A stretch of 64,000 bases of DNA from Cyathus striatus (taxonomy: Eukaryota; Basidiomycota; Agaricomycetes; Agaricales; Nidulariaceae), in NCBI GenBank assembly GCA_025738555.1, contig JAOVFP010000005.1, forward strand, positions 6,262,001 through 6,326,000, in the 5' to 3' direction. The position numbers were made by a program, and so were the translations under genes. A model generated the notes under the pieces. That model did not search any database, was not told the DNA's origin, and saw only the letters and a list, made by a program, of their open reading frames with translations. Below, piece after piece: positions 30,525 to 58,426 of the stretch (its first letter is position 1; every line of letters starts with the position of its first letter).

Positions 30525-33500
30525 ATGTCTCAAACAGAACCAGGTAGGAGACCCATATGTTCACAATTCGCAGTTGCTTAAGGCGCGGGTCTACGATAGC
30601 TTTTACAGATCCACAAACCTTGAGGAGATTATATGAATCAATGTTAAAGTTACCAGATGATGATGTCTCAAAACCTTTATATCTCCAAGCAGTCGGTATC
30701 GAGTGCTACACGTCCAACCAACAGTTGAACAGTTTGGACATTTCTGAGTGGTCTATACAAGCATTCCAGTTGGCTGTCATACTTACTCCTCAACACAACC
30801 AAGAGCTGCGAATCTCCATACTTATGTCACTTGGCCGGGCTTTCAAACAACGTTACGACCTGAGCGGACGTGTCGAAGATCTAAATCAGGCCGTTTCCAC
30901 ACTACAGGAGGGCGTTGATTTAACCCCAGAGAATGATCCGTCGCTTCCTAATCAGCTAGCGGGCCTCGGATATGCTCTCCAGACTCGATTCCAGCAAACT
31001 GAAGAACTACGAGATCTCATGGAAGCTATAGAACTTTATCAGATGGCTGCTTTCCTTACACCAGAAGGAAGTCGCTCCCGATTTGAGATTCTCTTCAATC
31101 TCTCATATGCCTTGGTCCGCAGATTTGATCATACACATGAACTAAGCGATGCGGATGAAGCAATCGAAATCATGCATGACCTCGTCAATGATATGAATCC
31201 AGAACATCCGCGATATTTTTTATCTCTGAACGGCCTTGCCTGGATCTTGGAAGCCCGCTTTGATTATAGCGGAGACTTGAGAGACGTAGGCCAAGCTATC
31301 GATATTCAGCGTAAAACAGTCGAGAATAGGCCCAATGACCCCGGTTCTCTGACGAATCTGGGTAGGGCGCACAAAATATATTTCATGCAAACCGGGGAGC
31401 TACCACATATCCACATGTCCATTGAAGCTCATCGGAAGGCGCTGTCACTGGCAGAAGATGATCATTTGCCTACCATTCTTATAAATTTGGGAAGGTCGCT
31501 TGTATGTCGCTTTCTCACGACAGGTAATGTTGACGATGTTGAAGAGGCCATAGCGCTTGAACAGCGCGGTATTCAGATCTGTAGAGATGATGATCCAAAA
31601 GTGCGACAGTTCTACACTGCTCTGGGTGACCTGTTTAACCTTCGCTCTTCACTTACAAATGATTTGCGTGATATGCGTGAAGGGGCCTGGGCGCACAGAG
31701 AAGCGGTGATTCGAACACCTATTGGACACAGAGATTTGCCTAAATTCCTCTACAACCTAGGAAATTCTATGGAAACAGTATTTCATGGTACTAGAAACGA
31801 GTCTGATCTCTCTGAAGCAATCTCGTTTTACAAAGAAGCTCTTTCTCTAATTTTCGATGATAGTATTACACAGGTGGAATGCCTGACTAATCTAGGAAGG
31901 GCGTTGTGCAATAGATATAGGCTTGCACACCAGCAACACGACCTCGATGATGGTCTCAGCACGTTAAGGAAGTCTGTTACACTGTGCCCGCCGAATCATA
32001 TTCAATTTCCACATAGTCTTTTCCAACTTGCAGATGCATTGGAAATTCTGTTCAAAAATGAACACCAACTCGAGACCATAGATGAAGCAATCTCACTTGT
32101 GGAATGGGCGATAGATATCATTCCTGAAGGTAACGCTGCGTTGCCCTCCCTGCTTAGTAGATTGGGAGATTTATTCTTTGTTCGATTCAATACTACTACA
32201 CACAACAATGATGACATTGAAAGAGCTATGTCGTTATATCGCCAAGCTACACAGATGCCTGCTATATTCCCATCAATACGTCTAATTTGCTGGCAACAGT
32301 GGGGGTCGCTGTGTCTTCCCGAGGACCCAGAACAAGCCCTTCATGCATTCGAAATTATTTTTAATGTCATCGTCCCACAATTGGCATGGATTGGACGTAC
32401 TATGGAACAACGATATCTCTTACTGGAAACTCTGGCGAAAACTGTGAGCCAGGCAACAGCTGTAGCTATCCGATACGGACAACTTCACGTGGCTGTGGAG
32501 TGGCTAGAACAAGGTCGCTCAATAGTATGGAACCAAGTTAATAGTTTCCGCTCACCCTTAGACGATCTTCGAAAAGTGAACTTGGCCCTTTGTACGGAAC
32601 TAGAAAAGATAGCGATCGCTTTGGAAGAAGCTAGTATGCGAACAAACTCATCCGATTTGTTAGGAAGTAGTATGGCGCGCAATATCTCCATTCAAGATGA
32701 CGTCCTTCGGCATCAAGGTCTTGCAAAGCAATGGGATTCATTACTTTGTCAGGTTCGCAGCATAAGTGGCTTCGAACATTTTCTCTATCCAATACCGTTT
32801 CCTGAGCTGGTTCTGAAACTACCACTGTCTGGTCTAGTAATAGTAGTTAATGTCGACCCATTTTCTTGTGATGCTTTGGTTCTTACCCGTGACATATCAT
32901 TAGAGAGCCAGGCTAATATCGTCCCCGTCCGCTTGCCTCGATTCTACAAGAGAGCAGTCATTCTGCGCGAAAGATTACATAAACTACTTTCCGGTCCTTC
33001 AACTCGGACAAGAACTGCACGCAAAGGTCGTCTTGCTATAAATGAGAAGGACCGATTTTCCATCAAGGAGCTCCTTCGGGAATTGTGGTACGAGATCGTG
33101 AAGCCCATCCTTGATGTGCTTAAGCTAGAGGTAAGTAACCCTTTGGTTCCAACTTCCATGGCCGTTACGATGAACATGAATATCACAGTCTACATCCAAT
33201 CCCCCTCGAATATGGTGGTGCCCAACTGGCCCTCTCGCTTTTCTTCCTCTTCATGCCGCTGGCGATTACTACTACAATGATAAAACTCAAAATCCTGGAT
33301 CAAATATCATGGAATATGCGATTTCATCTTACACACCCACTATCACCGCTCTGACGAAGAGTCTATCTAAGCACCATCAACAACAATATCAGGAGTTCAA
33401 GGGATTGCTTGCCGTCAGCGAGCCAGCAGCTTCCGGTTTTTCACCTATCCCAGGTACAGCTCTGGAGATTAAATACCTGAAGCAGATATTCGGCACATTT

Positions 33501-34034
33501 TCTCAAACATTCCGTAGCCTGGAAGGCGACGAAGCAACAGTGAAGAGCGTCCGGGATGCCATGCCTTCGCACAGCTGGATCCATCTCTCCTGCCACGCTC
33601 TCCAGAACGACAGCCCTCTCAATAGTGCATTCTATCTCCATGATGGACAGCTGTCCCTTGGAGATATAATTAAACAACCACTTCCTCATTCACAATTTGC
33701 ATTCCTTTCGGCATGCGAGACGGGGAAGGGAGACAAAAAGCTCTCCGAAGAAGCACTTCATCTTGCAGCGGGTATGCTGGCGGTGGGATATACCAGTGTC
33801 GTCGCAACTATGTGGTCGATCAGTGACAACTGTGCCCCGCAGGTCGCAAAAGAATTTTACTCGTACATATTACAGAGAGAGGACGAGAGCTCTGCAGAGT
33901 ATAATTATCCAGATTGTACTAGAGCAGCGTCTGCACTTCATCATGCCATAGGACGCTTTCGGCATCTGGACCTGGCTGGCGATGACGAAGATGGCCTCTT
34001 GCTTTGGGTTCCGTATATCCATGTAGGCATTTAG
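30525..34034 (+). CDS. TPR-CHAT protein 1, intact, three exons
   Basis: Exons 30525-30543, 30609-33130 and 33189-34034 join in frame to 1128 residues starting MSQTEPDPQTLRRL. Residues about 10-640 are degenerate tetratricopeptide repeats with the recurring pattern LGxxLxxRF, then DLxEAI. A linker with EWLEQGRSIVWNQVNSF follows at about 650-680. The CHAT domain includes RIWWCPTGPLAFLPLHAAG near 855, the likely catalytic His near 983 (WIHLSCHA) and Cys near 1023 (FLSACETGKG). CHAT domains are caspase/separase-like cysteine proteases; in bacteria TPR-CHAT proteins act as regulated proteases (for example with type III-E CRISPR effectors). A fungal role in recognition or cell death is inference. 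No signal peptide or membrane segment is seen, so it is probably cytosolic. The short first exon is confirmed by identical splice sites in all three copies. Confidence 0.9.
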
Positions 34035-34767
34035 GAATTTAAATAAGTACACATTTTTCATATTTTGGTATACCTTGAGTAAGTATGTGGTTCCCATAGA
34101 AGGTATCTTGCTTCAATCCAATTTTTACGCTGGTGGGACACTGCCGACTTCTAACAATTTTATCTACCTTCGAGTTTCATTAGATGCGCTGGCATGCGGC
34201 GCTGCTCCGTGAAAGCACTCACCTTCACCAACGCCGAATTGAGTGCGGCTCTAACTCAACTTTTGCTGTTAGCTAGCGATTCCACATGTCATCTTTCGTG
34301 GTCGCCGCCTGAGGCTTGAGCAAGAGACACCGAAAGGAGGCGCGATGTCTGCATGATCATTATCGCAAGAATAACGTTCAGACACGGTAACATGACCCTC
34401 CGTCCAGGTGCAGACCTATGCAACGACATTAGAGAATATCAATTATGGCAGGGGAGGATTTGCGCGGTCACAAGCAATATCAAGAACAGCGATCTATGTT
34501 GCAGAGAACGACCGAGTACAAAGATATGACAGAAATACACTTCGAGGATGATAAGGAGCGATACATTGAGTTCCAATCGTTCAAGGGTATAATATAAGTT
34601 GGGGGTATATTCCATAGCCTTCCCTGGTCCGTTAGTGAATCAACTAACGCACCAGGACTATCAACAGCTCACCATAACACCAATCCACACTACGAGACCT
34701 TTCTCTTTGACGGCCTGACCGTTTTGTTCTCCACATCTTGTAGCGACCTCCTCGAAGTAGTATTTTC
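34035..34767. other. Duplicated 3' flank of TPR-CHAT genes
   Basis: It recurs after copies 2 (48518-49250) and 3 (58427-59159), then leads into a coiled-coil copy on the opposite strand. No gene is seen. Confidence 0.5.
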
Positions 34768-35510
34768 CTACGTGCAACATGAGCCCGGTAATATGAGAGA
34801 AGGCAACAAACGAACTGACAACGGACGCTCAATCTGCAACGACTCGTCGGGGTCTTGATGAGACGGCTTTGAATGAGCCGATTCCCCGACAAGCACTTTG
34901 TTCTTAAGGCGAAGGAGTCGTATCTATGAAGTGTTAGCATTGTCACCTAGCACACGAAAGCCACAGGATTACAGACTTGCTTGTCGTACTCGGCGTTTTC
35001 TTTCTTCAGCTGCTCGAGCTCAAGCTCGAGCCCATCATACTTCTGCTTAAGCTGCCGATTCGTATCACCCTCCCTCATCCACCGTGCTACCGCTTCATCG
35101 CGCTCCTTCTCCTTTCGTTTCTGGCTTTTTCGTTCTTTCGTCGTTAATTGCCTTTTCTTGTTGACTTCTCATCGAAGATGCACGATGTCACTGACTTTCG
35201 AGGCTTGATCCTCTTTTATTCGAACGTCTTCCTCTCGTAGTGTAGAGTTTTCTTTCTTCAATTCGTCGCGGTCATTCAAGACGGGGGCGAGGCTTTCTTC
35301 CAGGCTTTTCGCAGACTCAAATAATCCTTCCTGCCCATCAACATATTTAGAACGGAAGTGTAATGAGGAGCTGTGAATGTACTCACCACCACTCCAGTGT
35401 CAATACTGCTCCCCCTCGACTTTTGCACGACACCACGAATCTCTTTGATAGCGTGCTTCAAACTAACGCAAGATGTATCCTTGTCAATCTTCCCCAACTT
35501 CGACAGTTTC
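34768..35510 (-). pseudogene. Coiled-coil family C, copy 3
   Basis: The exon layout matches copy 2 (last exon 34923-34768; middle exon 35330-34977, 118 codons). The Trp codon after DIVHLR is TGA at 35169-35171. Otherwise the middle exon is open, with a short extra Leu-Glu repeat before QLKKENAEYDKQ (from an expanded GAGCTCGAGCT motif). Confidence 0.6.
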
Positions 35511-35689
35511 TGCCCTCTTCTCAGGTGCGTTCACTTCCTCATCTGAGAAGAAATCCACGAAGAGTTGAACCAGTGTTCCCTTCAGTCGTCGACATGAGTG
35601 GCAAGTATCGCGAAGCGTCGCGTCTCGCTCCATGCGGTTTCTACACCTTCTATGTCCTTTATATATCTTCATGTAAGTAAGCTGTGATA

Positions 35690-35865
35690 GTTCCAGGTTG
35701 TATTGCATACGCACCGCAGGGAAAGAAGAGGAATGGGTTTGTCGTCTTTTCGCGCGAGGAAGAGTTGATACTAGGAGAGAAGAAACATGCATGCTTGACA
35801 TTCGACTTTGACCATACTGATTCAGCGTTCGGGATGATTAGCGTAAGTTATACGCAGCTTAAGCT
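35690..35865 (+). other. Family V conserved exon, copy 2
   Basis: The plus-strand frame reads VPGCIAYVPQGKKRNGFVVF, then SREEELILGEKKHACLTFDF and HTDSAFGMIS, and ends at a good splice donor GTAAGTT. Acceptor-like TGATAG precedes it. The conserved copies at 44228 and 50180 keep the frame. No downstream exon is visible and I do not recognise the protein; probably one exon of a gene left behind when the block rearranged. Confidence 0.4.
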
Positions 35866-37214
35866 TTGAAGCTGCTGGCCAACTTGGGCCAATACGTTAC
35901 TATGAATCATTGCCATTTTACTGCACCTTAGGCAGGGTAGTTCTTGCTTAGTAAGCTTCAGGCCTACCCCGTTCACCTTGCCCACAGCACTCCCCAGCAT
36001 CTCGATCACCCGCGTATGGCTCACCTCGCCCTGGAATGCTGCATATGTCTCGATGCAGGTGGTTCATGAGCTGCATAGGGATCCATCGTAAGCATTGTGC
36101 TGCATCTGCGAAAGCTGCAATTCTGTCTATGCAAGATAAGTTACCGTTCATGTAAGTAATCTCTCATTTATGTCTTTCAGCTTAGCCTGATGCTCTACCA
36201 GCTACGATATCCGCATGTGGCTCATCGCATTATATTGCTTCCTCCTCGTAAGTTCATAGATACAGCTCTCTACGAGCAAATGCTAACATACTCCTTTAGC
36301 CGCTTCAAATTTACAAACCACTTGGCTGGTTAACTATCCCCTATTCAGGTGCCCCATTCTCCCAGGTGCACAGGTGCTACTTCTCCACATTTCCTCGTCT
36401 CTCGCCCCGCTGCAGATGAAGAGTTCGTTCGCCTCAAAATCTTCAAACTTCTCCACCCCGCGTCTCCATCATTCTGCCCGTCCCCCTCGCACTGCTAATG
36501 CCAAACTCTACGACCCCAACACAAACCTATTCCCATTCGCCATACTGCAATGCCTGAGCTGTTGTGAGACGCAATCGGCAGTTCCCATCTCCCCCGCTAT
36601 GCTTCTTTCTCTCCGTCTCTCTCCCAGTCCACTACTTCTCCTTCCAGTGCTTCCCGTGATTCTCATCCCAGAGAACGAAACTGAATGCTTGCCGAGCCAC
36701 AACTGCCCCCCTCCTACCACATCCCCATCCCCAGCAATAACCCCCTCCCTGTCCTGACCGCTCTCCTTATTCAGACACTCTTCTCCCCTCTGCCACCCCT
36801 GCCTCCGCCTCTCCTCCTCCAGGCAGTTATCCAATCCTCCTAGGTGCACAAGTGCTGCTCCTCCTCATCTCCTCGTCCCTCGCCCCACTGCAGACGAAGA
36901 ATTCACTGGCCTCAAAATCTCAAACTCATCCACCTCGCGACCCTACCATTCTGCTCGTCCCCCTCGGACTGCCAATGCCCAGCTCCTCTCCTACTCTACT
37001 CCCTTCCTTTTATTCTGCCAATCCCTCTTCTCCCTTTTCCCTCCCCTTTCTCCTTCCCTGCTTCCCCTCCAGTGCTCCCCCAATCATGATTCCCTTCCCC
37101 TTCTTCTTTCCCTTCTCGCCTTTCCACTCACTCTCCACGCAGAACCCGTGCATGTCTCCCTCAAGTGTAGATCGCCTGCTGTGGGTGATATCAGCCACTA
37201 GTTCCAGTATTATA
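35866..37214. other. Duplicated non-coding stretch with pyrimidine-rich tracts
   Basis: It matches 50345-51650 with small indels. Around 36590-37140 it is strongly CT-rich, giving long Pro/Ser/Leu frames in several phases that differ between the two copies. I see no convincing gene; part may be the promoter and early exons of the hydrolase that follows. Confidence 0.4.
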
Positions 37215-38910: not shown

Positions 38911-40419
38911 AACCGTGCTAAGACCACGCTGTCGTACAACGGCATCTACACATCTGACTGGCCTGATGGTTCTACCTACCCCGAGGACTACGTGCGTCCC
39001 CCTTCCCTTCTACTTGATTCACCCCCGCCTTGAATTCTAATCGGACAATTGTAGAACGTCCCATCATGCATTATACCACCTAACGGTGAGTTAACCCTTT
39101 CCCAAATTCCACTATACACCGTATTCACGTACACATTACCAGTGCACACGCAGAACCAGTCCATGGCAGCCGGAACTGCATTCGCCATCTCCTACGTTGT
39201 ACGTCCTACATTTGTCTTAGAATCTGCGCCCGTGCTGATGTTGTTTCCAGTCTGACATTAAGCAAGTAACACCCGATAATCTTGCAGTCTTCAGTGTTCG
39301 TTACCAGTATGTCTTTTTCTTAATTCCGCGATCTAGAACTGAAAAATCCAAAGCACACCATGGAAACGCGTAACATCGTATTCCGTTCCAGCAGCAATGC
39401 CCGCATGCCCCGACGGAGGATGTATCTGTGCCGTACGTCCCCCTTCCCTCCCCCCCTCCCCCCATCCCACTAACCACCTTAAACACAGTGGGGATGGGTC
39501 CCAAACGGGTGTGGCCAACCAAACATGTACCACCAAGCCTTCAAATGCAAAGTAACAGGCGCAACACCCACAACCCCCGTCGCATCGCCTCAACCTCCGG
39601 TATGGAGCGAAGACGACCCAAGTAAATGCGTAACTGGGGCCAAGCAGATGATTTATTGGAATCAGCTGGATGAAAATAATATTGAGGTTGATGGGTATGA
39701 TTTGAGTGGGGAGTTTAAGAGTCCGGTGTATAATTCAAAGTGTGGGTTTGCGGATGGTGCGCAGAATGATATTTTTGGGAGTGGGTCGAGTAGTGGGTCT
39801 TCGGGTAGTAGGACTTCGAGCAGTGAATCCTCTGCCTCATCTGCCTCTGCCTCTCCTGCCTCTTCGTCAAGCAGTGGATCTTCGAGTAGTGGATCATCTG
39901 GCAGCGATTCTTCCAACACCTCAGGAAGCTCGAGTCCCAGCTCTGCCTCCCCTGCCTCTGCCTCCTCTTCCAGCTCCTCTTCCGACTATAGCGCAATAGT
40001 GGCAGTAGCAGCAGCAGCAAATGACCCTCCCAGCTCATCTACCACCTCTTCCCCCACTGGTTCATCCAGCTCCAACTCCAATTCCAATAATCTCAACCCT
40101 GGCTCAAGTTCTTGCTCCAGCCCCTCCGCATCGTCTCCTTCAACTTCCTCTGCTTCTTCAACACCCTCTACCTCATCCACCCCAACTTCGTCCACTTTAT
40201 CTACCTCATCCTCTACCTCCGTCTCAGCTACATCAAGCAAAGCAGCGCACCGCAATGCAAGCACCAACACCGCCAGCGCCGTCGTCGATCCCCGTGCCCG
40301 AGCCTGAACCTGATCCCGTCCCTGCTCCTGCTCCGGAGCCAGTGGCAATTTCCCCCCCTCAGAACCTCGTATCTAGGATGAGGCAGTACCACAGGAGAGC
40401 AGCTTCTCACTCTTGGTAG
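38911..40419 (+). pseudogene. AA14-like LPMO copy III, 5'-truncated and frameshifted
   Basis: It begins at the same exon-5 point as copy I (CTTGGGAT joined to AACCGTGC), so the deletion predates the duplication. Exons 5-10 are recognisable; the last exon starts at 39489. A one-base change near 40236-40250 shifts the Ser-rich tail, and the frame ends at 40307 after VVDPRARA, whereas the other copies continue to the end matching 40419. It has no signal peptide and no N-terminal His. Confidence 0.8.
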
Positions 40420-40940: not shown

Positions 40941-41982
40941 TTACAATACATCACCCTCCCTTGCAATCCCACCCAAAAAATCCAGTGTCCGATGGAAAAG
41001 CTCATCAAAATCGCCAAGGAGGCCCCAACGATCAAGCAGCGTCGCTATATCCTCCTCTTCCAGTCCTAGCACACCATCTATCCCATTCGCACGTCTCCCA
41101 CTCCGACTCATAGACACACGCTCTTCTTCCAGCCACACCTCAAGCACCTCTTCCCCACCCACTATAATACTGCGCAGACGCGCTATATCAGTCTGCGTAA
41201 GTGGTGTAGACTTGGATGTGGCGTCCAGGACGAGGTCGACTCCGGCGCCTTCATCCGGGTCCCATATTTGACGTTGGAGAACTGCGAGCCAGGCTTGGTC
41301 CAGGTCGTCTAGGAAGTCAATAAGTTCTGTCAGAGTTGAGCGGGGGTCTGCCCCTGTGGCTGCTGGCGTGTTCCCGTTTGGCGTTGTCGAGTCTGGGGAG
41401 GTGTCCATTGTGTCTTCGGTGTGGTCTTCTGGGGCAGTTAGGAAGGGTGTGAGAGGGTATCCGCATACTGCTCCGACGACGTCGCCTGTTAGTCGGAGCA
41501 TGTATGTTGTACAGAGGCATGTACTGGGATCCACGGGGGGAATTTGGAGGATGAAGGAAAGGAGGTGTCGGGCGGCTGAGAGGTAGGCGTGTAGTGTTTT
41601 AACTGAGGACGTTGGTTGTGATCTAGCATTTTACAGCAATACAGAACCGACAATCCCTATACATAGATTCTCTTCAGTCCCGTAAGAGAATGAGATAACA
41701 AGCAGACATACGTACGTCATAATATCAAGAAATACCATATAAAAGGGAGAATCAATATGACAATATTAAAACATACGTGAAAGCCATGAAAGATCATCTA
41801 CTCGAAAGGAGTACAAACCGCTTCTTATATGCCCTCGTCAGTTCCAGGAACTTTTCGTCTAGGTACGTTGTGAGTCGACGTTCTTGCGCCGACGTGAGCG
41901 GTCGTGTTCGGAGGGGTTTCTTGGGTGCTGAGCCATTGGTTTCGATAGGAGGTTCAAGAGAACGAGGTATCTCTGGGGCCAT
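40941..41982 (-). CDS. Family H conserved protein, copy IV
   Basis: Exon 1 from ATG 41982 (MAPEIPRSLEP) and the last exon (about 41600 to 40941, with DFLDDLDQAWLAVLQRQIWD) are both open and well conserved. The putative middle-exon donor is changed from GTGGT to GCTGT near 41636, so splicing may be altered or use a GC donor. It may be functional or a very young pseudogene. Confidence 0.45.
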
Positions 41983-43332: not shown

Positions 43333-43368
43333 CATGTCTTGTAGCGACCTCCTCGAAGTAGTATTTTC

Positions 43369-44060: not shown

Positions 44061-44227
44061 CGTTCACTTCCTCATCTGAGAAGAAATCTACGAAGAGTTG
44101 AATCGGTCTTCCCTTCAGTCGTCAACATGAGTAGCAAGTATCGCGAAGCCTCGGGTCTCGTTCCATGCAGTTTCTACACATTCCATGTCCTTTATATATC
44201 TTCATGTGAGCAAGCTGTGATAATTCC

Positions 44228-44392
44228 AGGTTGTATTGCGTACGTACCGCAGGGAAAGAAGAGGAATGGGTTTGTCGTCTTTTCGCGTGAGGAAGAGGTG
44301 ATACTAGGAGAGAAGAAACTCATGCATGCTTGACATTCGACTTTGACCATACGGATTCAACGTTCAGGATGATTAGCATGAGTCATACGTAG
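44228..44392 (+). other. Family V conserved exon, copy 3
   Basis: CIAYVPQGKKRNGFVVFSRE is intact, but after GEKKLMHA a stop replaces the CLTFDFDHTDS segment because of a short insertion near 44320. Confidence 0.4.
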
Positions 44393-44429
44393 CTCAAGCT
44401 TGAAGCTTTGAAGCTTCAACGTTCAATGA

Positions 44430-45023
44430 CAGTCCAACGGCCGACTTGGGGGCAACCGATAGTGCTGCCGTAGTAAAGTGGCACTGAAGCAAAATTTTAC
44501 ATCACCGTGAATCACTGCCACTTTACTGCACACAGCGCAGTACTGTGTAGTTGCTGTGACTGCACTGCAAGATTTTCAGGATCTGTCACACTACACATTA
44601 TGTCGCAGTCCCTGTGAAGTCCCCCGTGTTGGATTTTAAAGCACTTGTTCACTTCCGCTAGCCAGCGCTCTAGAGCGCTTCATCCGTCCCTTGACAGGAT
44701 CCTACTATTTCCTAAAGCAGTAGTTTAAAGAGTGCGCCTTGTGAGCGCCCGTCACATCACAGTGCTTCACCTTACTTCACATTATTTCACAGTGACATGA
44801 AATTTCACCTCACAGCGACTTTACTGCACTCTGCGACAGCACTAGCACTACACCTGATTAACAGCATGATCTTGAAAGACTCAAAAGTATCACTCACTGG
44901 CGCTCAACTGGTGCTCTATATAAACGGATTGCTGCATTACTAGTACTATATCAGTCTCCGTCAACCTCCCAGACCCAGTTTCTCTCAAAAAATCTCCCAG
45001 GCTTCTCCCAGGCCTATCGCAAC
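44430..45023 (+). promoter_or_regulatory. Upstream region of TPR-CHAT 2
   Basis: It is the same as the region before copy 1. The hairpin arms (44467-44481 region) have one mismatch. TTCAC words are more numerous than in copy 1 (44740-44830). The TATA box TATATAAA is at 44917-44924, 100 nt before the ATG. Confidence 0.5.
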
Positions 45024-48000
45024 ATGTCTCAAACAGAAACAGGTAGGGGATGCATATCCTCACGATTCACATATACTTAAGGCGTGGGTCTACGATAGCT
45101 TTTACAGATCCACAAACCTTGAGGGGATTATATGAATCGGCGTTAAAGTTACCGGATGATGATGTCTCAAAACCTTTACATCTCCTAGCAGTCAGTATCC
45201 AGTGCTACAAGTCCAACCAACAGTTGAACAGTTTGGACGTTTCAGAGTGGGCTATACAAGCGTTCCAGTTGGCTGTCATACTTACTCCTCAACTCGACCA
45301 AGAGCTGCGAATCTTCATACTTAGATCACTTGGCCGGGCTTTCATGCATCATTACGACCTGAGCCGACGTGTCGAAGATCTAAATCAGGCCATTTCTACA
45401 CTACGGGAGGGCATTGATTTAACCCCAGAGAATGATCCGTCGCTTCCTGATCAGCTAGCGTGCCTCGGATATGCTCTCCAGACTCGATTCGAGCAAACTG
45501 AAGAACTACGAGATCTCACGGAAGTTATAGATCTTCATCGGATGGCTGCTTTCCTTACTCCAGAAGGAAGTTGCTCCCGATTTGAGAGTCTCTTCAATCT
45601 CTCATCCGCCTTGTACAGCAGATTTGATTATACACATGAAATAAGCAATGCGGATGAAGCAATCGAAATCATGCATGACCTCGTCAATAATATGAATCCA
45701 GAAGATCCGGAATATTCCTCCACTCTCAACAACCTTGGCTGCATCTTGAAAGCCCGCTTTAATTATAGCGGAGACTTGAGAGACGTAGGCCAAGCTATCG
45801 ATATTCAGCGTAAAACAGTCGAGAATAGGCCCAATCACCCCGGTTCTCTGACGAATCTAGGTGACGTGCATCGAACACATTTCATCCAAACCGGGGAGCT
45901 ACCACATATCCACATGTCCATTGAAGCTCATCGGAAGGCGCTGTCACTGGCAGGAGATGATCTTTTGCCTACCATTCTTTTCAATTTGGGAATATCGCTT
46001 GGATGTCGCCATGACGCGACAGGTAATGCTGACGATCTTGAAGAGGCCATAGCGCTTGCACAGCGCGGTATTCAGATCTGTAGAGATGATGATCCGAAAG
46101 TGCGACGATTCTACAGTCATCTGGGTAATCTGTTTTACCACCGCTCTACACTTACACAAGATTTGCGTGATATGCATGAAGGGGCCCGGGCGCACAGAGA
46201 AGCGGTGAAAAGAACACCTATTGGACACAGAGATTTGCCTGGATTCCTCAACAACCTAGGAAATTCTATGATAAGGCTATTTCACACTACGGGGAACGAG
46301 TCTGATCTCTCTGAAGCAATCTCGTTTTACAAAGAAGCTGGTTCTCTAACTTTCGATGATAGTATTCGACAGATGTGCTACCAGAGTAATCTAGGGGACT
46401 CGTTGTGCAGTAGATATGAGCTTTCGCACCAGCAATCCGACCTCAATGATGGTCTCAGCGCGTTAAGAAAGTTTATTACACTGTACCCGCCGAATCATGC
46501 TAATCTTCCAGAACATCTTCACCAACTTGCAGACGCTCTGGAAATTCAGTTTGAAAATGAATGCCAACTCGAGACCATAGACGAAGCAATCTCAGTTATG
46601 GAATGGGCAATAGACATTACTCCTGAAGGGAACGCTGGGTTGCCCCTCCTGCTTGATGGATTGGGAAGTTTATTTTTTACTCGATGCAAAACAACACTGA
46701 GCAATGATGACATTGAAAGAGCTGTTTCGTTATATCGCCAAGCTACACAGACGCCTGTTGGATCCCCATTAATACGTCTACGCAGCGGGCGAAAGTGGGG
46801 GTCGCTGTGTTTTCTGGACCCAGAGCAAGCCCTTCATGCATACGAAATTATTTTTAATGACATCGTCCCACAATTGGCATGGATTGGACGTACTATGGAA
46901 CAACGATATCTCTTACTGACAACTCTGGCAGACGTTGTGAGCAAGGCAACAGTTGTAGCCATCCTATATAAACAACTTCACAAGGCCGTGGAGTGGCTAG
47001 AACAAGGTCGCTCAATAGTATGGAACCAAGTTAATAGTTTTCGCTCACCCTTAGACGATCTTCGAAAAGTGAACCCAGCCCTTTGTATGGAACTAGAAAA
47101 GATAGCGATCGCTTTGGACAAAGCTAGTATGCGAACGAACTCATCTGATCTGTTAGGTAGTATGGCACGCAATATCTCGATCCAAGATGACGTCCTTCGG
47201 CATCAAGGTCTTGCAAAGCAATGGGATTCATTACTTTGTCAGGTTCGCAGCATAAGTGGCTTCGAACATTTTCTCTCTCCAATACCATTTCCTGAGCTGG
47301 TTCTGAAACTACCACCATCTGGTCTAGTAATAGTAGTTAACGTCGACCTATTTTCTTGTGATGCTTTGGTTCTTACCCGTGACACATCATTAGAGAGCCA
47401 GGCTAATATCATCCCCGTCCGCTTGCCTCAATTCTACGAGAGAGCAGTTATTCTTCGTGAGAGATTATATAAACTACTCAATCCGAAGTCAGTTCGCACA
47501 AGAACTGCACGCAAAGGTCGCCCTGCTATAAATGAGAAGGACCAATTTTCCATCAAGGAGCTCCTTCGGGAATTGTGGTACGAGATCGTGAAGCCCATCC
47601 TTGATGTGCTTGATCTAGAGGTAAGTAACCCTTTGGTTCCGTGGGCGTTACGATGAACATGAATATCACAGCCTACACCCAATCCCCCTCGAATATGGTG
47701 GTGCCCAACTGGTCCTCTCGCTTTTCTTCCTCTTCATGCCGCTGGCGATTACTACTACAATGATGAAACTCACAATCCTGGATCAAATATCATGGAATAT
47801 GCGATTTCATCTTACACACCCACTATCACGGCTCTGACACAGAGTCTATCTAAGCACCACCAGCAACAACATCAGGAGTTCAAGGGATTGCTTGCCGTCA
47901 GCGAGCCAGGAGATCCCGCCGGTTTATCACATATCCCAGGTGCAGCTGAAGAAAATAACATCCTGAAGCACATATTCGGCTCATTTTCTCAAACATTCCG

Positions 48001-48517
48001 TAGCCTGGAAGGCGACGAAGCAACAGTGAAGAACGTCCGGGATGCCATGCCTTTGCACAGCTGGATTCATCTCTCCTGCCACGCTCTCCAGAACGACAGC
48101 CCTCTCAATAGTGCATTCTATCTCCATGATGGACAGCGGCTGTCCCTTGGAGATATAATTAAACAATCACTTCCTCATTCACAATTTGCATTCCTTTCGG
48201 CATGCGAGACGGGGAAGGGAGACAAAAAGCTCTCCGAAGAAGCAATTCATCTTGCAGCGGGTATGTTAGCGGTGGGGTATACCAGCGTCGTCGCAACTAT
48301 GTGGTCGATCAATGACCACTATGCCCCGCGGGTCGCAGAAGATTTTTACTCATACATATTACAGAAAGAGGACGAGAGCTCTGTAGAGTATAATTATCCA
48401 GATTGTACTAGAGCAGCGTCTGCACTTCATCATGCGATAGGACGGTTTCGGCTTCGGGTTGGCGATGATGAAGATGGCCTCTTGCTTTGGGTTCCGTATA
48501 TTCATGTAGGCATTTAG
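45024..48517 (+). CDS. TPR-CHAT protein 2, intact, three exons
   Basis: Exons 45024-45042, 45108-47620 and 47672-48517 give 1125 residues, with intron lengths 65 and 51 nt. Architecture is as in copy 1: TPR array, linker GRSIVWNQVNSFRSPLDDL, CHAT with intact His (WIHLSCHA) and Cys (LSACETGKG). Framework words between repeats (DVGQAIDIQRKTVENRPN, TGELPHIHMSIEAHRKAL, RGIQICRDDDPKVR) are nearly identical to copy 1, whereas residues inside each LGxxLxxRF helix differ, for example NLGDVHRTHF against NLGRAHKIYF. The differences look selected rather than random decay, since no stop or frameshift has appeared. Confidence 0.9.
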
Positions 48518-49250
48518 GCAGTTAGATAAGTACACATTTCTCATATTTTGGTATACCCTGCGTAAGTATGTGGTTCCCATAGAAGGTATCTTGCTTCAAT
48601 CCAAATTTTACGCTGATGGAACGCTGCCGACTTCTAACAATTTTATCTACCTTCGAGTTTCACTAGATGCGCTGGCATGCGGCGCTGCTCCGTGAAAGCA
48701 CTCACCTTCACCAACACCGAATTGAGTGTGGCTCTAACTCAACTTTCACTGTTAGCTAGCGATTCCACATGTCATCTTTCATGGTCTCCGCCTGAGGCTT
48801 GAGCAAGAGACACCGAAATGAGGCGTGATGTCTGCACGATCATTATCGTAAGAATGACGTTCAGACACGGTAACATGATCCTCCGTCCAGGCATAGACCT
48901 ATGCAGCGACATTAGGAAATATCAGTTATGGCAGGGGAGGATTTGCGTGGTCACGAGCAATATCAAGAATAGCGATCTGTGTTGCAGAGAATGACCAAGT
49001 ACAAAGACTTGATAGAAATACACTTCAAGAATGATACGTAGCGATACATTGAGTTCCAATCGTTCAAGGGTATAATATAAGTTGGGGATATCTTTCACAG
49101 CCTTCTCTGGTCCGTTAGCGAATCAACCAACGCGCCAGGATTATCAGCAGCTCACCATAACACCAATTCACGTTATGAGACCTTTCTCTTTGACAACCTG
49201 GCCATTTTGTTCTCCACGTCTTGTAGTGACCTCCTCGAAGTAGTATTTTG
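48518..49250. other. Duplicated 3' flank of TPR-CHAT 2
   Basis: It matches 34035-34767. No gene is seen. Confidence 0.5.
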
Positions 49251-50041
49251 CTACATGCAACATGAGCTCGGTCGTATGAGAGAAGGCAACAAACGAACCG
49301 ACAACGGAGGCTCAATCTGCAACGACTCGTCAGGGTCTTGATGAGACGGCTTTGAATGAGCCGATTTCTTGACAAGCACTTTATTCTTAAGGCGAAGCAG
49401 TCGTATCTATGAAGTGTTAGCATTGTCACCTAGCGCACGAAAGCCACAGAATTACAGACTTGCTTGTCGCACTCGGCGTTTTCTTTCTTCATCTGCTCGA
49501 GCTCGAGCTCGAGCCCTTCATACTTCTGCTTGAGCTGCCGATTCGTATCATCCTCCATCCACCGTGCCACTGCTTCATCGCATTCCTTCTCCTTTCGCTT
49601 CCGGCTTTATCGTTCTTTGCCGCTAATTGCTTTTTCTTGTCGACTTCCCATCGAAGATGCACAATGTCGCTGACTTTCGCGGCTAGATCCTCTTTCATTC
49701 GAACGTCTTCCTCTCGTAGTGTAGAGTTTTCTTTCTTCAATTCGTCGCGGTCATTCAAGACGGGGGCGAGGCACTCTTCCAGGCTTTTGCAGACTCAAGT
49801 AATCATTCCTGCCCATCAACATGTTTAGAACGAAAGTGTAAAGAGGAACTGTGAACGTACTCACCATCACTCCAGTGTCAATACTGCTCCCCCTCGACCT
49901 TTGCACGACACCACGAATCTCTTTGACAGCGCGCTTCAAACTAACGCCAGGTGTATGCTTGTCAATCTTCCCCAGCTTCTTCGATACAGTTTCTGCCCTC
50001 TTCTCAGGCGCGTTTACTTCCTCATCTGAGAAGAAACGCAC
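49251..50041 (-). pseudogene. Coiled-coil family C, copy 5
   Basis: The Trp codon is intact, and the N-terminal part is the most continuous of all copies (FFSDEEVNAPEKRAETVSKK, then LGKIDKHTPG). However, the middle exon (49808-49460) has lost single bases near 49790 and 49618, so the coiled coil is frameshifted twice. Confidence 0.6.
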
Positions 50042-50179
50042 GAAGAGTTGAACCGGTGTTCCCTTCAGTCATCGACATGAGTGGCAAGTATTGTGAAGCG
50101 TTGCATCTCGTTCCATGCAGTTTCTACATATTCCATATCCTTTATATATCTTCATGTAAGTGAGCTGTGCATGTGATAG

Positions 50180-50345
50180 TTCCAGGTTGTATTGCGTACG
50201 TACCGCAGGGAAAGAAGAGGAACGGGTTTGTTGTCATTTCGCGCGAGGAAGAGGTGACACTAGGAGAGAAGAAACATGCATGCTTGACATTCGACTTTGA
50301 CCATACTGATTCAGCGTTCGGGATGATTAGCGTAAGTTATACGCA
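50180..50345 (+). other. Family V conserved exon, copy 4
   Basis: It is fully open: VPGCIAYVPQGKKRNGFVVI, then EEEVTLGEKKHACLTFDF to FGMIS and donor GTAAGTT. It is followed by a short stretch matching the hairpin repeat of the TPR-CHAT promoter (50395-50450). Confidence 0.4.
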
Positions 50346-51649
50346 GCTTAAGCGCTTAAGCTTTGAAGCTGCTGGCTAACTTGGGCCAACTGATCAGTGA
50401 AGCGAAATTTTACGTTACTATGAATCACTGCCATTTTACTGCACCTTAGGCAGGGTAGTTCTTGCTTAGTAAGAGGCCTCTGACCACAGCACTCCCCAGC
50501 ACCTCGATCACCCGCGTATGGCTCACCTCGCCCTGGAATGCTGCATATGTCTCGATGCAGGTGGTTCATGAGCTGCATAGGGATCCATCGTAAGCATGGT
50601 GCAGCATCTGCGAAAGCTGCAATTCTGTCTATGCAAGATGAGTTACCGTTCATGCAAGTAATCTCTCATTTATGTCTTTCAGCTTAGCCTGATGCTCTAC
50701 CAGCTACGATATCCGCATGTGGCTCATCGCATTATATTGCTTCCTCCTCGTAAGTTCATAGATACAGCTCTCTACGAGCAAATGCTAACATACTCCTTTA
50801 GCCGCTTCAAACTTACAAACCACTTGGCTGGTTAACTATCCCCTATTCAGCAGCCAGCTAGAGTTCGTTCGCCTCAAAATCTTCAAACTTCTCCACCCCG
50901 CGTCTCCATCATTCTGCCCGTCCTCCTTGCATTGCTAATGTCAAACTCTACGACCCCAACACAAACCTATTCCCATTCGCCATACTGCAATGCCTGAGGC
51001 CTGAGCCGTTGTGAGACGCAATCAGCAGTTCCCATCTCCCCCGCCATGCTTCTTTCTCTCCGTCTCTCTCCCTGTCCACTACTTCTCCTTCCTGTGCTTC
51101 CCGTGATTCTCATCCCAGAGAACGAGACTGAATGCTTGCCGAGCCACAACTGCCCCCCTCCTACCACATCCCCATCCCCAGCAATAACCCCCTCCCTGTC
51201 CTGACCACTCTCCTTATTCAGACACTCTTCTCCCCTCTGCCACCCCTGCCTCCGCCTCTCCTCCTCCAGGCAGTTACCCAATTCTCCTAGGTGCACAAGT
51301 GCTGCTCCTCCTCATCTCCTCGTCCCTCACCCCACTGCAGACGAAGAATTCACTGGCCTCAAAATCTCAAACCCATCCACCTCGCGACCCTACCATTCTG
51401 CTCGTCCCCCTCGGACTGCCAATGCCCAGGTCCTCTCCTATTCTACTTCCTTCCTTTTATTCTGCCGATCCCTCTTCTCCTTCTCCTTCCCCTTTCTCCT
51501 TCCCTGCTTCCCCTCCAGTGCTCCCCCAATCATGATTCCCTTCCCCTTCTTCTCTCCCTTCTCGCCTTTCCACTCTCTCCACGCAGAACCCGTGCATGTC
51601 TCCCTCAAGTGTAGATCGCCTGCTGTGGGTGATATCAGCCACTAGTTCC
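50346..51649. other. Second copy of the non-coding, CT-rich stretch
   Basis: It is homologous to 35866-37214, with a deletion near 50850. No gene is seen. Confidence 0.4.
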
Positions 51650-52101
51650 AGTGTTATCTGATTACGACATACCTTACGACGACGTGGAGCTAAAGACACC
51701 AGATGGCTTCATTCTTCGTTGTTACCTCTTAACACAGAAGAGATTGGAGTTCGACCACCCCAAGGCCGCAAGTTTGCCGGGTGGGGAGAACGAGACAGAC
51801 GAGAAGGTATGCAATACATTTCCGTGTAACGTGTTAGTTGGTCTAACTACTCTGGAACACGACAGTTCATGTCTAAGTGTCGTACAGTGATAATATTCCA
51901 CGGAAATGGGTGAAATCATGGTCATCGTATTTCTCTTGCGCGAGTCTTTTTCATGAAAATGAGATGTAACGTGTTCATGCTGTCATATCGAGGGTATGCT
52001 CTTCTGCGGCAACTAGTACTGCCCTTCCTGACAATTCCTTAGTTACGGATAATCCGAGGGCTCACCTTCAGAAAAGGGCATGAACACCAGCTTGATCACT
52101 G
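51650..52101 (+). pseudogene. BEM46/ABHD13-like hydrolase, 5' fragment
   Basis: It encodes DYDIPYDDVELKTPDGFILR and the HGNG segment near 51900, then is cut at GCTTGATCACTG/TTCACC and joined to FAB1-like sequence. The catalytic Ser, Asp and His exons are absent. Confidence 0.65.
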
Positions 52102-52109
52102 TTCACCTA

Positions 52110-52700: not shown

Positions 52701-54106
52701 GTCTCTGCCTCCTCCAAGCATGTGGGTGTTCTGCGCATCGATAAATTGCCATTGCGTATGCCGTTGGGTCGGAGCAGGAGGTTTAAACAAATTATGCAGA
52801 TATGCTCTCATTATGTAGGCCATTTACCATCGAAGATGGAACAGTGAGTGGGATCATCTCTTTGGTGGAAATGAGACAAACGCCAGATCCGATATTCTTT
52901 AGGTCACCGTCAACAGATCACAAGGCTCCTTTCCCAGCTTTATTCTGTGCCTTGACGATACATTGTAATCCGTAAACACAGAAAAAGGAACCTGGACAAT
53001 GTATCGGTCATCCGCATGTACAATGACGAATCAATACCACTTACCTCGTATCGCCTCCCAAGGATAACAATCACCCTCCTGCTCGATAACGACTCCCTCC
53101 GCGGCGACCTCTCATGCTCATCCACGCTCTGAACATCATCCAACTTCCTCCCTCCAGCCCCACTACGTCCTACCGTGTCCCATCTCCAGCTCCAAGCTGC
53201 TCTCGTTTATCGGCATCATATCCGCACCAGGGTGTTCCAATACAACCGTGGCCTCCCCAGCCTGGTGCTCGTGCAACTTGCATACGCCACAGATGACTTT
53301 GTTTGGTGGATTTATGCCTAATGCGCGCTCGATCCAGCATCGTGGATCAGTGGGTTTGTTCACGTTCCGCCGGCCGCCACTGGGCTTGGTTGTTGTGGAG
53401 GTGTCGACTTCCTCGTCGAGCTTGCTGCGGGAGTAGTCTTCTACGCCATCTTTGATGGCTGTTGCCAGCAGGATGAAGGCGAGCGGGAGGACGGGCCGAT
53501 GGCGATGGAGCCTACAGCTGCGCCGGAGACAGGGAATGATGGGGGTGTTAGTGGGTGGTAATTGGGGAACAGCGGGATATATGCTGTACTATGGTGAGTT
53601 GATGACGAGAGAGCAGGAATAGGTTTGTTGCTCTGTTTACTGTATTAGTGCAGTAAGAAGGTATAATAGTATGAAACACACCATCTGAAGTGCTCATACA
53701 TGTTCTTCAGTATGAAGGCTAAGATGGTGTACTCTAAGGGGACATCAGGCCTCAGGACCCGCCCCCCTAACAATGGCAAGAACCAAAGGGACTCACTTGT
53801 CGTCCTGATTTTTTCATGAGATACTGATCAACGTGACATTCCTCTTCTGGTTTCTCCCCGCCACCGATGCCCATTGCTAGGCGCAGGCGGGTGAGATGGG
53901 GGTGAGGCCTTGAGGGGTCTTCGCCGGAGGCTGGAGACTGGAGGATGGGGCACGCTGCACAGGTGATAACAGAGAGAGGAGTTAGTGAAGTTCCAGTGTT
54001 GCAACATCGAACGTTAACTGAACTGTCCTACTTAGTCAGACCTGTTCCCAATTTGGATTCAAGGCCCTTCCCGCGGGTCCAACTGCCATGCCTACGGTGC
54101 ACCTTA
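52701..54106. other. Unassigned region between FAB1 fragment and TPR-CHAT 3
   Basis: Open frames on both strands between 52940 and 53440 (for example minus DPRCWIERALGINPPNKVIC, plus MTLFGGFMPNARSIQHRGSV) are suggestive but I cannot assign them. The stretch is not duplicated elsewhere in the window. From 53450 to 54106 nothing coding is evident. Confidence 0.3.
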
Positions 54107-54345
54107 CTTCACATTATATTAAATTTCACCTCACAGCGACTTTACTGCACTCTGCGACAGCACTAGCACTACACCTGATTAACAGCATGATCTTGAAAGA
54201 CTCAAAAGTATCACTCACTGGCGCTCAACTGGTGCTCTATATAAACGGATTGCTGCATTACTAGTACTATATCCGTCTCCATCGACCTCTCAAACCCAGT
54301 TTCTCAAAAAAAAATCTCCCAGGCTTCTCTCAGGCATATCGCAAC
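54107..54345 (+). promoter_or_regulatory. Upstream region of TPR-CHAT 3 (shortened)
   Basis: Homology to the other two promoters begins abruptly at CCTTACTTCACATTAT, so the upstream hairpin is missing. The TATA box TATATAAA is at 54238-54245. Confidence 0.5.
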
Positions 54346-57300
54346 ATGTCTCAAACAGAAACAGGTAGGAGACGCATATGTTCACGATTCGCAGGTGCTT
54401 AACGCGCGGGTCTACGATAGCTTTTACAGATCCACAAACCTTGAGGAGATTATATGAATCGGCGTTAAAGTTACCGGATGATGATGTCTCAAAACCTTTA
54501 CATCTACTAGTAGTTGGTATCCAGTGCTACACGTCCAACAAACAGTTGAACAGTTTGGACGTTTCCGAGTGGTCTATACAAGCATTCCAGTTGGCTGTCA
54601 TACTTACTCCTCAACACGACCAAGAGCTGCGAATCTTCATACTTAGATCACTTGGCCAGGCTTTCATGCAACATTACGACCTGAGCCGACGTGTCGAAGA
54701 TCTAAATCAGGCCGTTTCCACACTACGGGAGGGCGTTGATTTAACCCCAGAGAATAATCCGTCGCTTCCTGATCAGCTAGCACTCCTCGGATATGTTCTC
54801 CAGACTCGATTCGAGAAAACTCAAGAATTACGAGATATCACGGAAGCTATAGATCTTTATCGGATGGCTGCTTTCCTTACTCCAGTAGGAAGTTGCTCCC
54901 AATTTCAGATTCTCCTCGGTCTCTCATCCGCCTTGGGCAGCAGATTTGATCATATACATGAACTAAGCGATGTGGATGATCATGAAGCAATCGAAATCAT
55001 AGGGTCTACGATAGTTTTTACAGATCCACAAACCTTGAGGACATTATATGAATCGGCGTTAAAGTTACCGGATGATGATGTCTCAAAACCTTTACATCTC
55101 CTAGTAGTCGGTATGCAGTGCTACGCGTCCAACCAACAGTTGAACAGTTTGGACGTTTCCGAGTGGACTATACAAGCGTTCCAGTTGGCTGTCATACTTG
55201 CTCCTCAACACGACCAAGAGCTGCGAATCTCCATACTTAGATTACTTGGCCGGGCTTTCATACAACATTACGACCTGAGCCAACGTGTCGAATATCTAAA
55301 TAAGGCCGTTTCTACACTACGGGAGGGCGTTGATTTAACCCCAGAGAATGATCCGTCGCTTCCTGATCAGCTATCGTACCTTGGAAATGCTATCCTGACT
55401 CGATTCGAGCAAACTGAAGAACTACGAGATATCACGGAACTTATAGAACTTCATCGGATGGCTGCTTTCCTTACACCAGAAGGAAGTCGCTCCCGATTTG
55501 AGATTCTCATCGATCTCTCATCTGCCTTGGATAGCAGATTTGATTATACACATGAACTAAGCGATGCAGATGAAGCAATCGAAATCATGCATGACCTCGT
55601 CAATAATATAAATCCAGAAGATCCGCTATATACTTTATCTCTAAACAACCTTGCCTGCACCTTGGGAGCCCGCTTTCATTATAGCGGAGACTTGAGAGAC
55701 GTAGGCCAAGCTATCGATATTCAACGTAAAACAGTCGAGAATAGGCCCAATGACCCCAATGCTCTGACGAATCTGGGTAGCTCGCACCAAGCATATTTCA
55801 TACAAACCGGGGAGCTACCACATATCCACATGTCCATTGAAGCTCTTCGGAAGGCGCTGTCACTGGCAGGAGATGATCTTTCACCTGCCATTCTTATGAA
55901 TTTGGGAGTATCGCTTGGATGTCGTTTTCTCGTAACACGTAATGTTGACGATCTTGAAGAGGCCATAGCGCTTGAACAGCGAGGTATTCAGATCTGTAGA
56001 GATGATGATCCAAATATGCGACGGCTCTACACTGATCTGGGTGTCATGTTTGACTTTCGCTCCGTACTTACACAAGATTTGCGTGATGTGCATGAAGGGG
56101 CCCGGGCGCACAGAGAAGCGGTGATTCGAACACCTATTGGACACAGAGTTTTGCCTGGACTCCTCAACAACCTAGGAATTTCTATGCAAAAACTATTTCG
56201 CGCTACGGGGAACGAGTCTGATCTCGCTGAAGCAATCTCGTGTTACAAAGAAGCTCTTTCTCTAATTTTCGATGATAGTATTGATCAGATGTACTACCTG
56301 AGTAATCTAGGGGGCGCGTTGTGCAGTAGATATAAGCTTGCACGCCAGCAATCTGACCTCGATGATAGTCTCAGCGCGTTAAGAAAGTCTGTTACACTGT
56401 GCCCGCCGAATCATGCTCGACTTCAAATTAATCTTTGCCAACTTGCAGACGCGTTGAAAGTTCTGTTCGAAAATGAACACCAACTCGAGACCATAGACGA
56501 AGCAATCTCAGTTATGGAATGGGCGATAGACATCACTCCTGAAAGGAAAGCTGGATTGCCCTCCTGCTTGGTAGATCGGGAGGTTTATTCTTTGCTCGAT
56601 ACGAAATGACACAGAGTAATGACGACATTGAAAGAGCTTTTTCGTTATATCGCCAAGCTACACAGATGCCTGCTGGATCCCCATTAACACGTCTAATCAG
56701 CGGGCAACAGTGGGGGTTGCTGTCTCTTCTCGTGGACCCAGAACAAGCCCTTCATGCATTCGAAATTATTTTTAATGACATCGTCCCACAATTGGCATGG
56801 ATTGGACGTACTATGGAACAACGATATCTCTTACTGGCAACTCTAGCGGACATTGTGAGCTTGGCAACAGCTGTAGCCATCCGATATGAACAGCTTCACA
56901 TGGCCGTGGAGTGGCTAGAACAAGGTCGCTCAATAGTATGGAATCAAGTTAATAGTTTCCGCTCACCCTTAGACGATCTTCGAAAAGTGAACTCCGCCCT
57001 TTGTACGGAACTAGAAAAGATAGCGATCGCTTTGGACGAAGCTAGTATGCGAACAAACTCATCCGATTTGTTAGGAAATAGTATGGCACGCAATATCTCC
57101 ATTCAAGATGACGTCCTTCGGCATCAAGGTCTTGCAAAGAAATGGGATTCATTACTTTGTCAGGTTCGCAGCGTAAATGGATTCGAAAAATTTCTCTGTC
57201 CAATACCGTTTTTTGAGTTGGCTCTGAAACTACCACCGTCTGGTCTAGTAATAGTAGTTAATGTCCACCCAATTTCTTGTGATGCTTTGGTTCTTACCCG

Positions 57301-58426
57301 TGACACATCATTAGAGAGCCAGGCTAATATCGTCCCCGTCCGCTTGCCTCAATTCTACGAGAGAGCAGTCATTCTTCGCGAGGGATTATATAAACCACTT
57401 TCCAATCGGTCAGCTCGCACAAGAACTGCACGCAAAGGTCGCCCTGCTACAAGATTTTCCATCAAGGAGCTCCTTCGGGATTTGTGGTACGAGATCGTGA
57501 AGCCCATCCTTGATGTGCTTAAGCTAGAGGTAAGTAACCCTTTGGTTCCGTGGGCGTTACGATGAATATGAATATCACAGCCTACATCCAACCCCCCTCG
57601 AATATGGTGGTGCCCAACTGGTCCTCTCGCTTTTCTTCCTCTTCATGCCGCTGGTGATTACTACTACAATGACAAAACTCAAAATTCTGGGTCAAATATC
57701 ATGGAATATGCGATTTCATCTTACACACCCACTATCACGACTCTCACACAGAGTCTATCTAAGCACCACCAGCAACAGCATCAGGAGTTCAAGGGATTGC
57801 TTGCCGTCAGCGAGCCAGCAGCTTCCGGTTTTTCACCTATCCCAGGTACAGCTCGGGAGATTAAATACCTGAAGCAGATATTCGGCTCAGTTTCTCAAAC
57901 ATTTCGTAGCCTGGAAGGCGTCGAAGCAACAGTGGAGAACGTCCGGGATGCCATGCCTTTGTACAGCTGGATCCATCTCTCCTGCCACGCTCTCCAGAAC
58001 AACAGCCCTCTCAATAGTGCATTCTATCTCCATGATGGACAGCTGTCCCTTGGAGATATAATTAAACAGCCACTTCCTCATTCACAATTTGCATTCCTTT
58101 CGGCATGCGAGACGGGGAAGGGAGACAAAAAGCTCTCTGAAGAAGCACTTCATCTTGCAGCGGGTATGTTAGCGGTGGGGTATACCAGCGTCGTCGCAAC
58201 TATGTGGTCGATCAATGACGACTATGCCCCGCGGGTCGCAGAAGATTTTTACTCATACATATTACAGAAAGAGGACGAGAGCTCTGCAGAGTATAATTAT
58301 CCAGATTGTACTAGAGCAGCGTCTGCACTTCATCATGCCATAGGACGCTTTCGGCATCTGAACCTGGTTGGCGATGACGAAGATGGCCTCTTGCTTTGGG
58401 TTCCGTATATCCATGTAGGTATTTAG
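54346..58426 (+). pseudogene. TPR-CHAT 3: internal duplication and a frameshift
   Basis: Exon 1 54346-54364, intron to 54429 and exon 2 follow the other copies. At about 55001 the sequence returns to the 3' part of intron 1 and repeats the first TPR block: 54409-55000 is duplicated as 55002-55588. The former intron piece is read in frame as GSTIVFTDPQ. A single C is missing near 56563 (CCCTCCTGC against CCCTCCCTGC), so the frame stops at 56609; the rest continues from 56606 in another frame, through intron 57530-57580 to the intact CHAT end (WIHLSCHA, LSACETGKG) at 58426. Apart from that one base the gene is open, so it is either newly dead or affected by a sequencing error. Confidence 0.8.
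55002..55588 (+). repeat. Tandem duplication of the first TPR block in TPR-CHAT 3
   Basis: It repeats 54409-55000, including the last part of intron 1 with its acceptor TTTTTACAG. The first unit has an extra 6 bases (GATCAT) near its end. The two units differ at several helix positions. Confidence 0.8.

Follow-up and report, generated by a model that had tools for sequence, protein, structure and literature searches.

A basidiomycete array of TPR-CHAT genes with selection focused on predicted groove positions of the TPR superhelix

Csx29 (Craspase), in which tetratricopeptide repeats (TPRs) are joined to a CHAT protease domain, is the TPR-CHAT protease of type III-E CRISPR (clustered regularly interspaced short palindromic repeats) systems and works with an RNA-guided partner; we know of no diversification of its groove. 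In corals, passages of a study of Acropora place TPR-CHAT proteins in regions that are non-syntenic between haplotypes and describe large tandem expansions of them (PMC12314368); the Ka/Ks analysis in those passages was run on other families of these regions (P450, sulfotransferase and phospholipase), and we found no site-wise test on TPR positions there. A TTC28-like expansion is described in part of a report on Montipora (PMC9145168). Fungal CHAT proteases activate gasdermins, according to sections of two further papers (PMC12881547, PMC10197012), and the second also describes fungal nucleotide-binding oligomerization domain (NOD)-like receptors (NLRs) with WD40, ANK or TPR sensors whose repeat surfaces carry residues under positive selection and whose families expand and undergo birth and death. 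Already known, then, are TPR-CHAT proteins, a role in fungi connected with gasdermins, positive selection on the repeat sensors of fungal NLRs, and coral expansions that differ between haplotypes. In a search that did not extend to most papers in subscription journals or to any bioRxiv preprint, we came across no earlier account of a basidiomycete TPR-CHAT array in which selection is traced to the groove. Here we describe such an array around a 64-kb window (C5:6262001-6326000; C5, C21 and similar names denote contigs of this 107-Mb, 24-contig genome), in which, as judged from codon comparisons among copies, the predicted concave groove positions are under positive selection and the core positions and the CHAT domain are constrained.

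Three TPR-CHAT genes lie on the plus strand of the window between 30525 and 58426, in duplication blocks that are about 90% identical by self-BLAST. The sequences quoted in an earlier note on this DNA were recovered where it had placed them, its two limits being the ATG of c1 exon 1 (30525) and the stop of c3 (58426).

30525..34034, plus strand: TPR-CHAT copy c1, intact, 1131 amino acids (joined open frame, GT-AG introns, tblastn)
30525-30543, 30600-33130 and 33189-34034, plus strand: c1 exon 1, exon 2 (TPR superhelix and linker) and exon 3 (CHAT)
45024..48517, plus strand: TPR-CHAT copy c2, intact, 1128 amino acids (joined open frame)
45024-45042, 45099-47620 and 47672-48517, plus strand: c2 exons
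54378..58426, plus strand: TPR-CHAT copy c3, broken, with an uninterrupted CHAT exon and a stop at 58426

Both c1 and c2 contain two introns, with a 19-nt first exon followed by the TPR exon and then the CHAT exon, and this layout matches that of the annotated Cyathus striatus protein P0001. Of the three long copies counted in the note, only c1 and c2 are intact; in c3 the N-terminal part is duplicated in tandem (54408-55000 and 55002-55588) and the TPR exon has a 1-nt frameshift near 56.56 kb. Judged by spacing, the exon-1 ATG of c3 is slightly upstream of 54378, near 54352.

Copy c2 matches the Pfam families TPR_10, TPR-S and CHAT (PF12770; 108 bits against a cut-off of 24), and the CHAT exon of c3 scores 108.1 bits against the same CHAT profile. 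At E values up to 0.01, solely TPR families and CHAT were matched by the TPR and CHAT exon frames of c2, with neither NACHT nor NB-ARC among them. The His and Cys that we take to be the CHAT catalytic dyad are present in all 23 uninterrupted CHAT exons aligned (the interrupted exons of L025, L026 and L028 and a window fragment were left out), and H985 never varies among 60 homologues, at least 90% of which also have C1025. The AlphaFold model of P0001 (mean predicted local distance difference test score 85.8; predicted template modelling score 0.71) has 13 TPR helix pairs and structurally matches Csx29 and separase, at sequence identities of 12% to Csx29 and 10-13% to the listed separase chains. 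In architecture these proteins resemble the coral, TTC28-like ones, with a long run of TPRs at the N terminus and one CHAT domain at the C terminus, and they share with the fungal CHAT receptors controlling gasdermins the fusion of a repeat region (TPR) to a CHAT protease.

The earlier note had described a near-constant framework with variation at the x positions of each LGxxLxxRF helix, which the sequence bears out, and had proposed diversifying selection on a groove-facing surface coupled to a conserved CHAT effector. Selection was analysed in 11 copies without internal stops in the TPR exon, giving 55 pairs. The median pairwise ratio of non-synonymous to synonymous divergence (dN/dS) is 0.70 (0.24-1.25) for the TPR exons and 0.26 (0.14-0.59) for the dyad-bearing CHAT exons, which are conserved as the note had it. 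To fix the TPR register, the L7-G8 motif was located in all 13 helix pairs of the P0001 model, and positions 2, 5, 9, 12 and 13 were taken as the canonical concave positions. Counted over all pairs, non-synonymous differences in this concave set amount to 0.324 per site and synonymous ones to 0.180, a ratio of 1.80, compared with 0.24 for the helix-A core (4, 7, 8, 11), 0.84 for other helix-A positions and 0.44-0.49 for helix B. Position 9 taken singly gives 1.16, and positions -1 and 16, which share a face with the concave set, give 1.58 and 1.37. The focus of variation is far beyond chance: in 20,000 random draws of five positions, the concave non-synonymous rate was never reached.

With a partition codon model, the dN/dS ratio ω is 3.35 at the 65 concave sites, 0.65 at the rest of the TPR sites (506) and 0.57 at all others (279), twice the log-likelihood difference (2ΔlnL) being 256 against ω of 1 and 380 against equal ω values. 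Site models that use no partition favored M2a over M1a by 236 and M8 over M7 by 367. Sites selected at >0.95 number 29 of 850, with 26 of them inside the TPR superhelix; 20 of these 26 are concave by register, although concave positions make up just 65 of its 571 residues (odds ratio 37, p 1e-15). Thus dN/dS at the helix positions is well above that of the framework, and the selected sites are not scattered but concentrated on the predicted concave groove, as had been proposed.

Several observations weigh against this reading and against the receptor function that we build on it below. Tree support is low, as expected with gene conversion. Some non-concave positions (3, 6, -1, 16, 30, 31, 35) also have ratios above 1, and the groove was assigned from TPR register and model helix boundaries, not from coordinates or contacts. 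The CHAT exon has a weak M7/M8 signal (2ΔlnL 20.7), though M2a over M1a gives 7.8 and no site exceeds 0.95. Between c1 and c2, concave dN is 0.56 and dS 0.34 (11.7 synonymous differences), against 0.104 and 0.085 at other TPR codons, so that synonymous divergence is raised too. Only 12 of the 28 array copies or fragments examined (24 fetched array loci, the three window copies and a window CHAT fragment) look intact. We found neither a gasdermin nor another substrate; gasdermin (Pfam PF04598) has zero matches here and also zero in 14 control genomes, which makes that result uninformative.

A recombination artefact was addressed with segment trees and disjoint pairs. When a separate tree was used for each of six segments of 10 full-length copies, ω was 3.00 against 0.64 (2ΔlnL 176 against ω of 1) and 14 of 18 selected sites were concave, and random disjoint pairings gave dN/dS of 1.28-3.62 at concave positions and 0.45-0.72 elsewhere. 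In single pairs, dN exceeds dS at concave positions in 47 of 55 and at other TPR sites in 5 of 55, and a site bootstrap of concave dN/dS spans 1.43-2.97. A mutational hotspot at groove codons is unsupported over all pairs (synonymous rate 0.180 versus 0.148-0.172 in other classes), but it may still apply to particular pairs, c1 and c2 with their raised groove dS among them. The three window copies alone are thin evidence, and the strength comes from paralogues elsewhere in the genome. An allele-like pair, L002/L004, has a TPR dN of 0.002 and dS of 0.013, and in a comparison of three array proteins of C. striatus the residues that differ are 40-53% at concave positions versus 13-16% elsewhere in the TPRs.

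The CHAT exon has at least 94 match rows in the genome, 32 of them at least 79% identical and the remaining 62 at most 52%; among the matches listed, all 32 are on C5 (5.93-6.38 Mb) or C21 (0.15-0.58 Mb). The TPR exon has at least 75 rows, which split in the same manner (53 of 176 candidates scored), and the array lies near the end of C5. Intact-looking copies are c1, c2, L002, L006, L011, L014 and L020 on C5, and L003, L004, L005, L012 (1395 amino acids) and L015 on C21; ten of these were verified as joined frames (22 tried) and L003 and L020 via exon ends, the second intron of both being GC-AG. A GC donor in place of GT is also seen in intron 1 of the otherwise intact L002 and L004. A 1.4-kb tract comprising linker and CHAT (L026:2795-4200 and L005:5695-7105) is 98.65% identical across the two contigs while the TPR parts upstream are 87.7% identical, an apparent exchange of the effector module between sensors.

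The start of C21 (1-3000) matches C5:5826165-5829218 at 94-96%, and C21:678113-681123 aligns at 88% with the whole of the final 3 kb of C5, of which the closing 123 bases match exactly. The overlap runs from the first base of C21 (C5:5826165) to the last base of C5 (C21:681123), 651 and 681 kb respectively, and because it spans these two contig ends, the end of C5 and the start of C21 are probably two unmerged haplotypes of one chromosome. A segmental duplication is the rival reading, which we consider unlikely. It would accord with the unstated phasing of the assembly, with the dispersed repeat that accounts for 1852 bases of the terminal 3000 on C5, and with what looks like a true TPR-CHAT duplicate elsewhere, a single-exon 1188-amino-acid gene present twice outside the array (L029 on C2, L030 on C7), each 93-94% identical to one C. 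striatus protein. The overlap is instead placed as expected of unmerged haplotypes at contig ends, C21 alone matches all 3000 bases of the C5 end, and further out C5:5784001-5787000 has no C21 counterpart.

The gene content of the array differs between C5 and C21. At its edges, allele pairs have TPR exon identities of 99.3% (L001/L003), 99.5% (L002/L004), 97.6% (L006/L007) and 98.8% (L019/L020). For 15 of the 17 non-edge copies (25 compared), the best cross-contig match is 89.0-92.0%, the exceptions being L014 with L007 (96.3%) and L018 with L019 (94.4%), both partners of which are edge genes. Apart from a 330-bp repeat, window positions 60301-63000 match only themselves and an 84% stretch on C11, with nothing on C21. 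The DNA upstream of L010 is 97% like C21:217267-219034, and some of it belongs to a unit that recurs on both contigs at 92-97%; L017:1-3000, largely dispersed repeat, was dropped as a DNA query. The L010 flank, the 1.4-kb tract and the two exceptional pairs reject the idea that the interiors share nothing. In three of the four edge pairs (L001/L003, L006/L007 and L019/L020) the TPR exon is intact on one contig and broken on the other.

Among the best 120 of 572 database matches, the closest proteins are five from C. striatus, all on a contig of 1,040,768 bases. Crucibulum, a genus of the same family as Cyathus, appears among these matches at 29-32% identity only. The array locus is probably syntenic in the genus, since the two best relatives of a gene that lies some 150 kb beyond the array are on a contig equal in length to that of the C. 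striatus array proteins. Three of the latter have best partners of at most 86.3% among ten full-length proteins of this genome. With identities to C. striatus of 63% for the gene beyond the array and 93-94% for the non-array TPR-CHAT gene, the fungus may be a distant strain of that species or another member of its genus. A small tandem gene family outside the contig overlap (C5:5772784-5790492; copies 71-74% identical in DNA, function unassigned) also has relatives on that C. striatus contig.

A probable explanation is that the array encodes intracellular, NOD-less, one-protein receptor-proteases that sense fast-changing or non-self ligands. We infer that the TPR helix pairs, about thirteen in number, build a superhelix and that a variable ligand would bind in its concave groove; the likeliest ligand would be part of a non-self or pathogen protein, either an extended peptide or a helix. 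Binding would change the shape of, or release, the fused caspase-like CHAT protease, which may then cleave a shared substrate to give a defensive response, probably death of the cell or compartment, or signalling. New specificities would come from tandem duplication, from copies exchanging modules and from positive selection acting on the groove, while the protease half stays constant. Such receptor-protease logic has support by analogy from the fungal CHAT proteases that activate gasdermins and from Craspase.

Within this explanation, the receptors could be directed against pathogens or parasites (a virus, a bacterium or an invading mycelium), with an arms race driving the groove and haplotype differences arising as a by-product of gene birth and death; we give this nearly an even chance. 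Groove selection, the many broken copies and the absence of partners above 86.3% for the three C. striatus array proteins are in keeping with it, but the data point to no pathogen ligand and do not distinguish this case from allorecognition. Allorecognition is a possible role of the array, which as a somatic-incompatibility locus would hold haplotype-specific receptor sets reacting to products of other strains. The end-to-end overlap of C5 and C21, the contrast between edge pairs (97.6-99.5%) and the 15 of 17 interior copies without a cross-contig partner above 92.0%, and the interior stretch without a C21 match would all suit such a locus. Incompatibility in basidiomycetes is described as poorly understood, and part of one source gives three to five loci as likely (PMC8229728). 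Both haplotypes must nevertheless coexist in one dikaryon, the haplotypes seen are two only (these and a few C. striatus proteins are what bears on balanced or trans-species polymorphism), and interior flanking patches are 97% alike (L010), so that we regard this role as rather improbable. Equally tentative is a wider conjecture, in which the whole 0.65-0.68 Mb region would be a somatic-incompatibility or innate-immunity supergene, with conserved outer genes, nucleus-specific interior sets of fused sensor-proteases, specificity encoded by five positions in each TPR, and an executioner shared by sensors that are exchanged over it.

That constraint has relaxed as the tandem array decays, so that nothing keeps the groove from varying, is very unlikely and is rejected as the sole cause. 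There are many broken copies, and the structure of any TPR leaves its groove residues free to change; relaxed constraint nonetheless predicts ω near 1 and not 3.0-3.35 (2ΔlnL 176-256), and the core positions and CHAT exon are under purifying selection. In the non-array control pair L029/L030, moreover, TPR dN is 0.037 and dS 0.084, with a groove excess that is not significant (6/55 versus 26/437, p 0.15). That these are separase- or TTC28-like housekeeping proteases duplicated with no recognition role is scarcely credible, given the 10-13% identity to separase chains and an array, groove selection and contig-specific copies that are unexpected for housekeeping genes.

The window also contains a partial copy and co-duplicated neighbors:

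9628..10328, plus strand: CHAT-exon fragment without a TPR exon (genome match C5:6271627-6272325)
29770..36348, plus strand: duplication unit with c1, 90% identical to 44224-50850 (self-BLAST)
44224..50850, plus strand: duplication unit with c2 (self-BLAST)
39525..40307, plus strand: AA14 lytic polysaccharide monooxygenase exon (Pfam PF22810, 104.9 bits), a co-duplicated neighbor outside the receptor

The DNA preceding the CHAT fragment (8337-9628) resembles sequence downstream of other copies. AA14-type frames with long Ser-rich tails are also found at 5116-6045 and 16961-17737 (Pfam was run on 39525-40307 only), and a minus-strand frame without a Pfam match is co-duplicated with the AA14 frames (6578-7138, 18245-18898 and 40941-41534). 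Pieces of a Ty3/gypsy-type retrotransposon lie on the minus strand at 21273-25612 as separate open frames between array units, with the domains RVP_2, RVT_1, Integrase_H2C2 and SH3_Tf2-1. The 330-bp stretch at 60301-60630 belongs to a genome-wide element of tens of copies (full-length matches 83-97%), and is adjoined by a tandem pair, 59971-60138 and 60139-60304.

Basidiomycete non-self recognition is described as poorly understood in part of a published account (PMC8229728), and the array provides a concrete, mapped candidate for it, with the prediction that specificity resides at five groove positions per TPR; what began as an impression from sequence alone is now quantitative, with ω about 3 at the groove versus 0.65 elsewhere in the TPRs. 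Csx29 is 12% identical to the array proteins and differs from them in having an RNA-guided partner. The array proteins carry the proposed sensor and protease in one chain, as is proposed for the TPR-bearing fungal CHAT proteases that control gasdermins; in the relevant sections on the latter, the receptors are clustered with gasdermin and demonstrated in the ascomycete Podospora, whereas here we have a basidiomycete array. Fungal NLRs, as far as the passages on them extend, share with it a positively selected repeat surface, expansion, and birth and death, but the window protein has no NACHT or NB-ARC by Pfam and its sensor and effector are directly fused. The closest parallel is with the coral TPR-CHAT arrays. 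In the parts of the Acropora report that concern them, these too combine N-terminal TPRs with one CHAT domain, are expanded in tandem, and differ in copy number between the haplotypes of one individual, although the coral proteins are animal and TTC28-like and it is in the fungal array that selection is resolved to the TPR groove. Taken together, the fungal and coral arrays suggest that fungi and animals may both have turned the TPR-CHAT architecture into a rapidly evolving repertoire of receptor-proteases.

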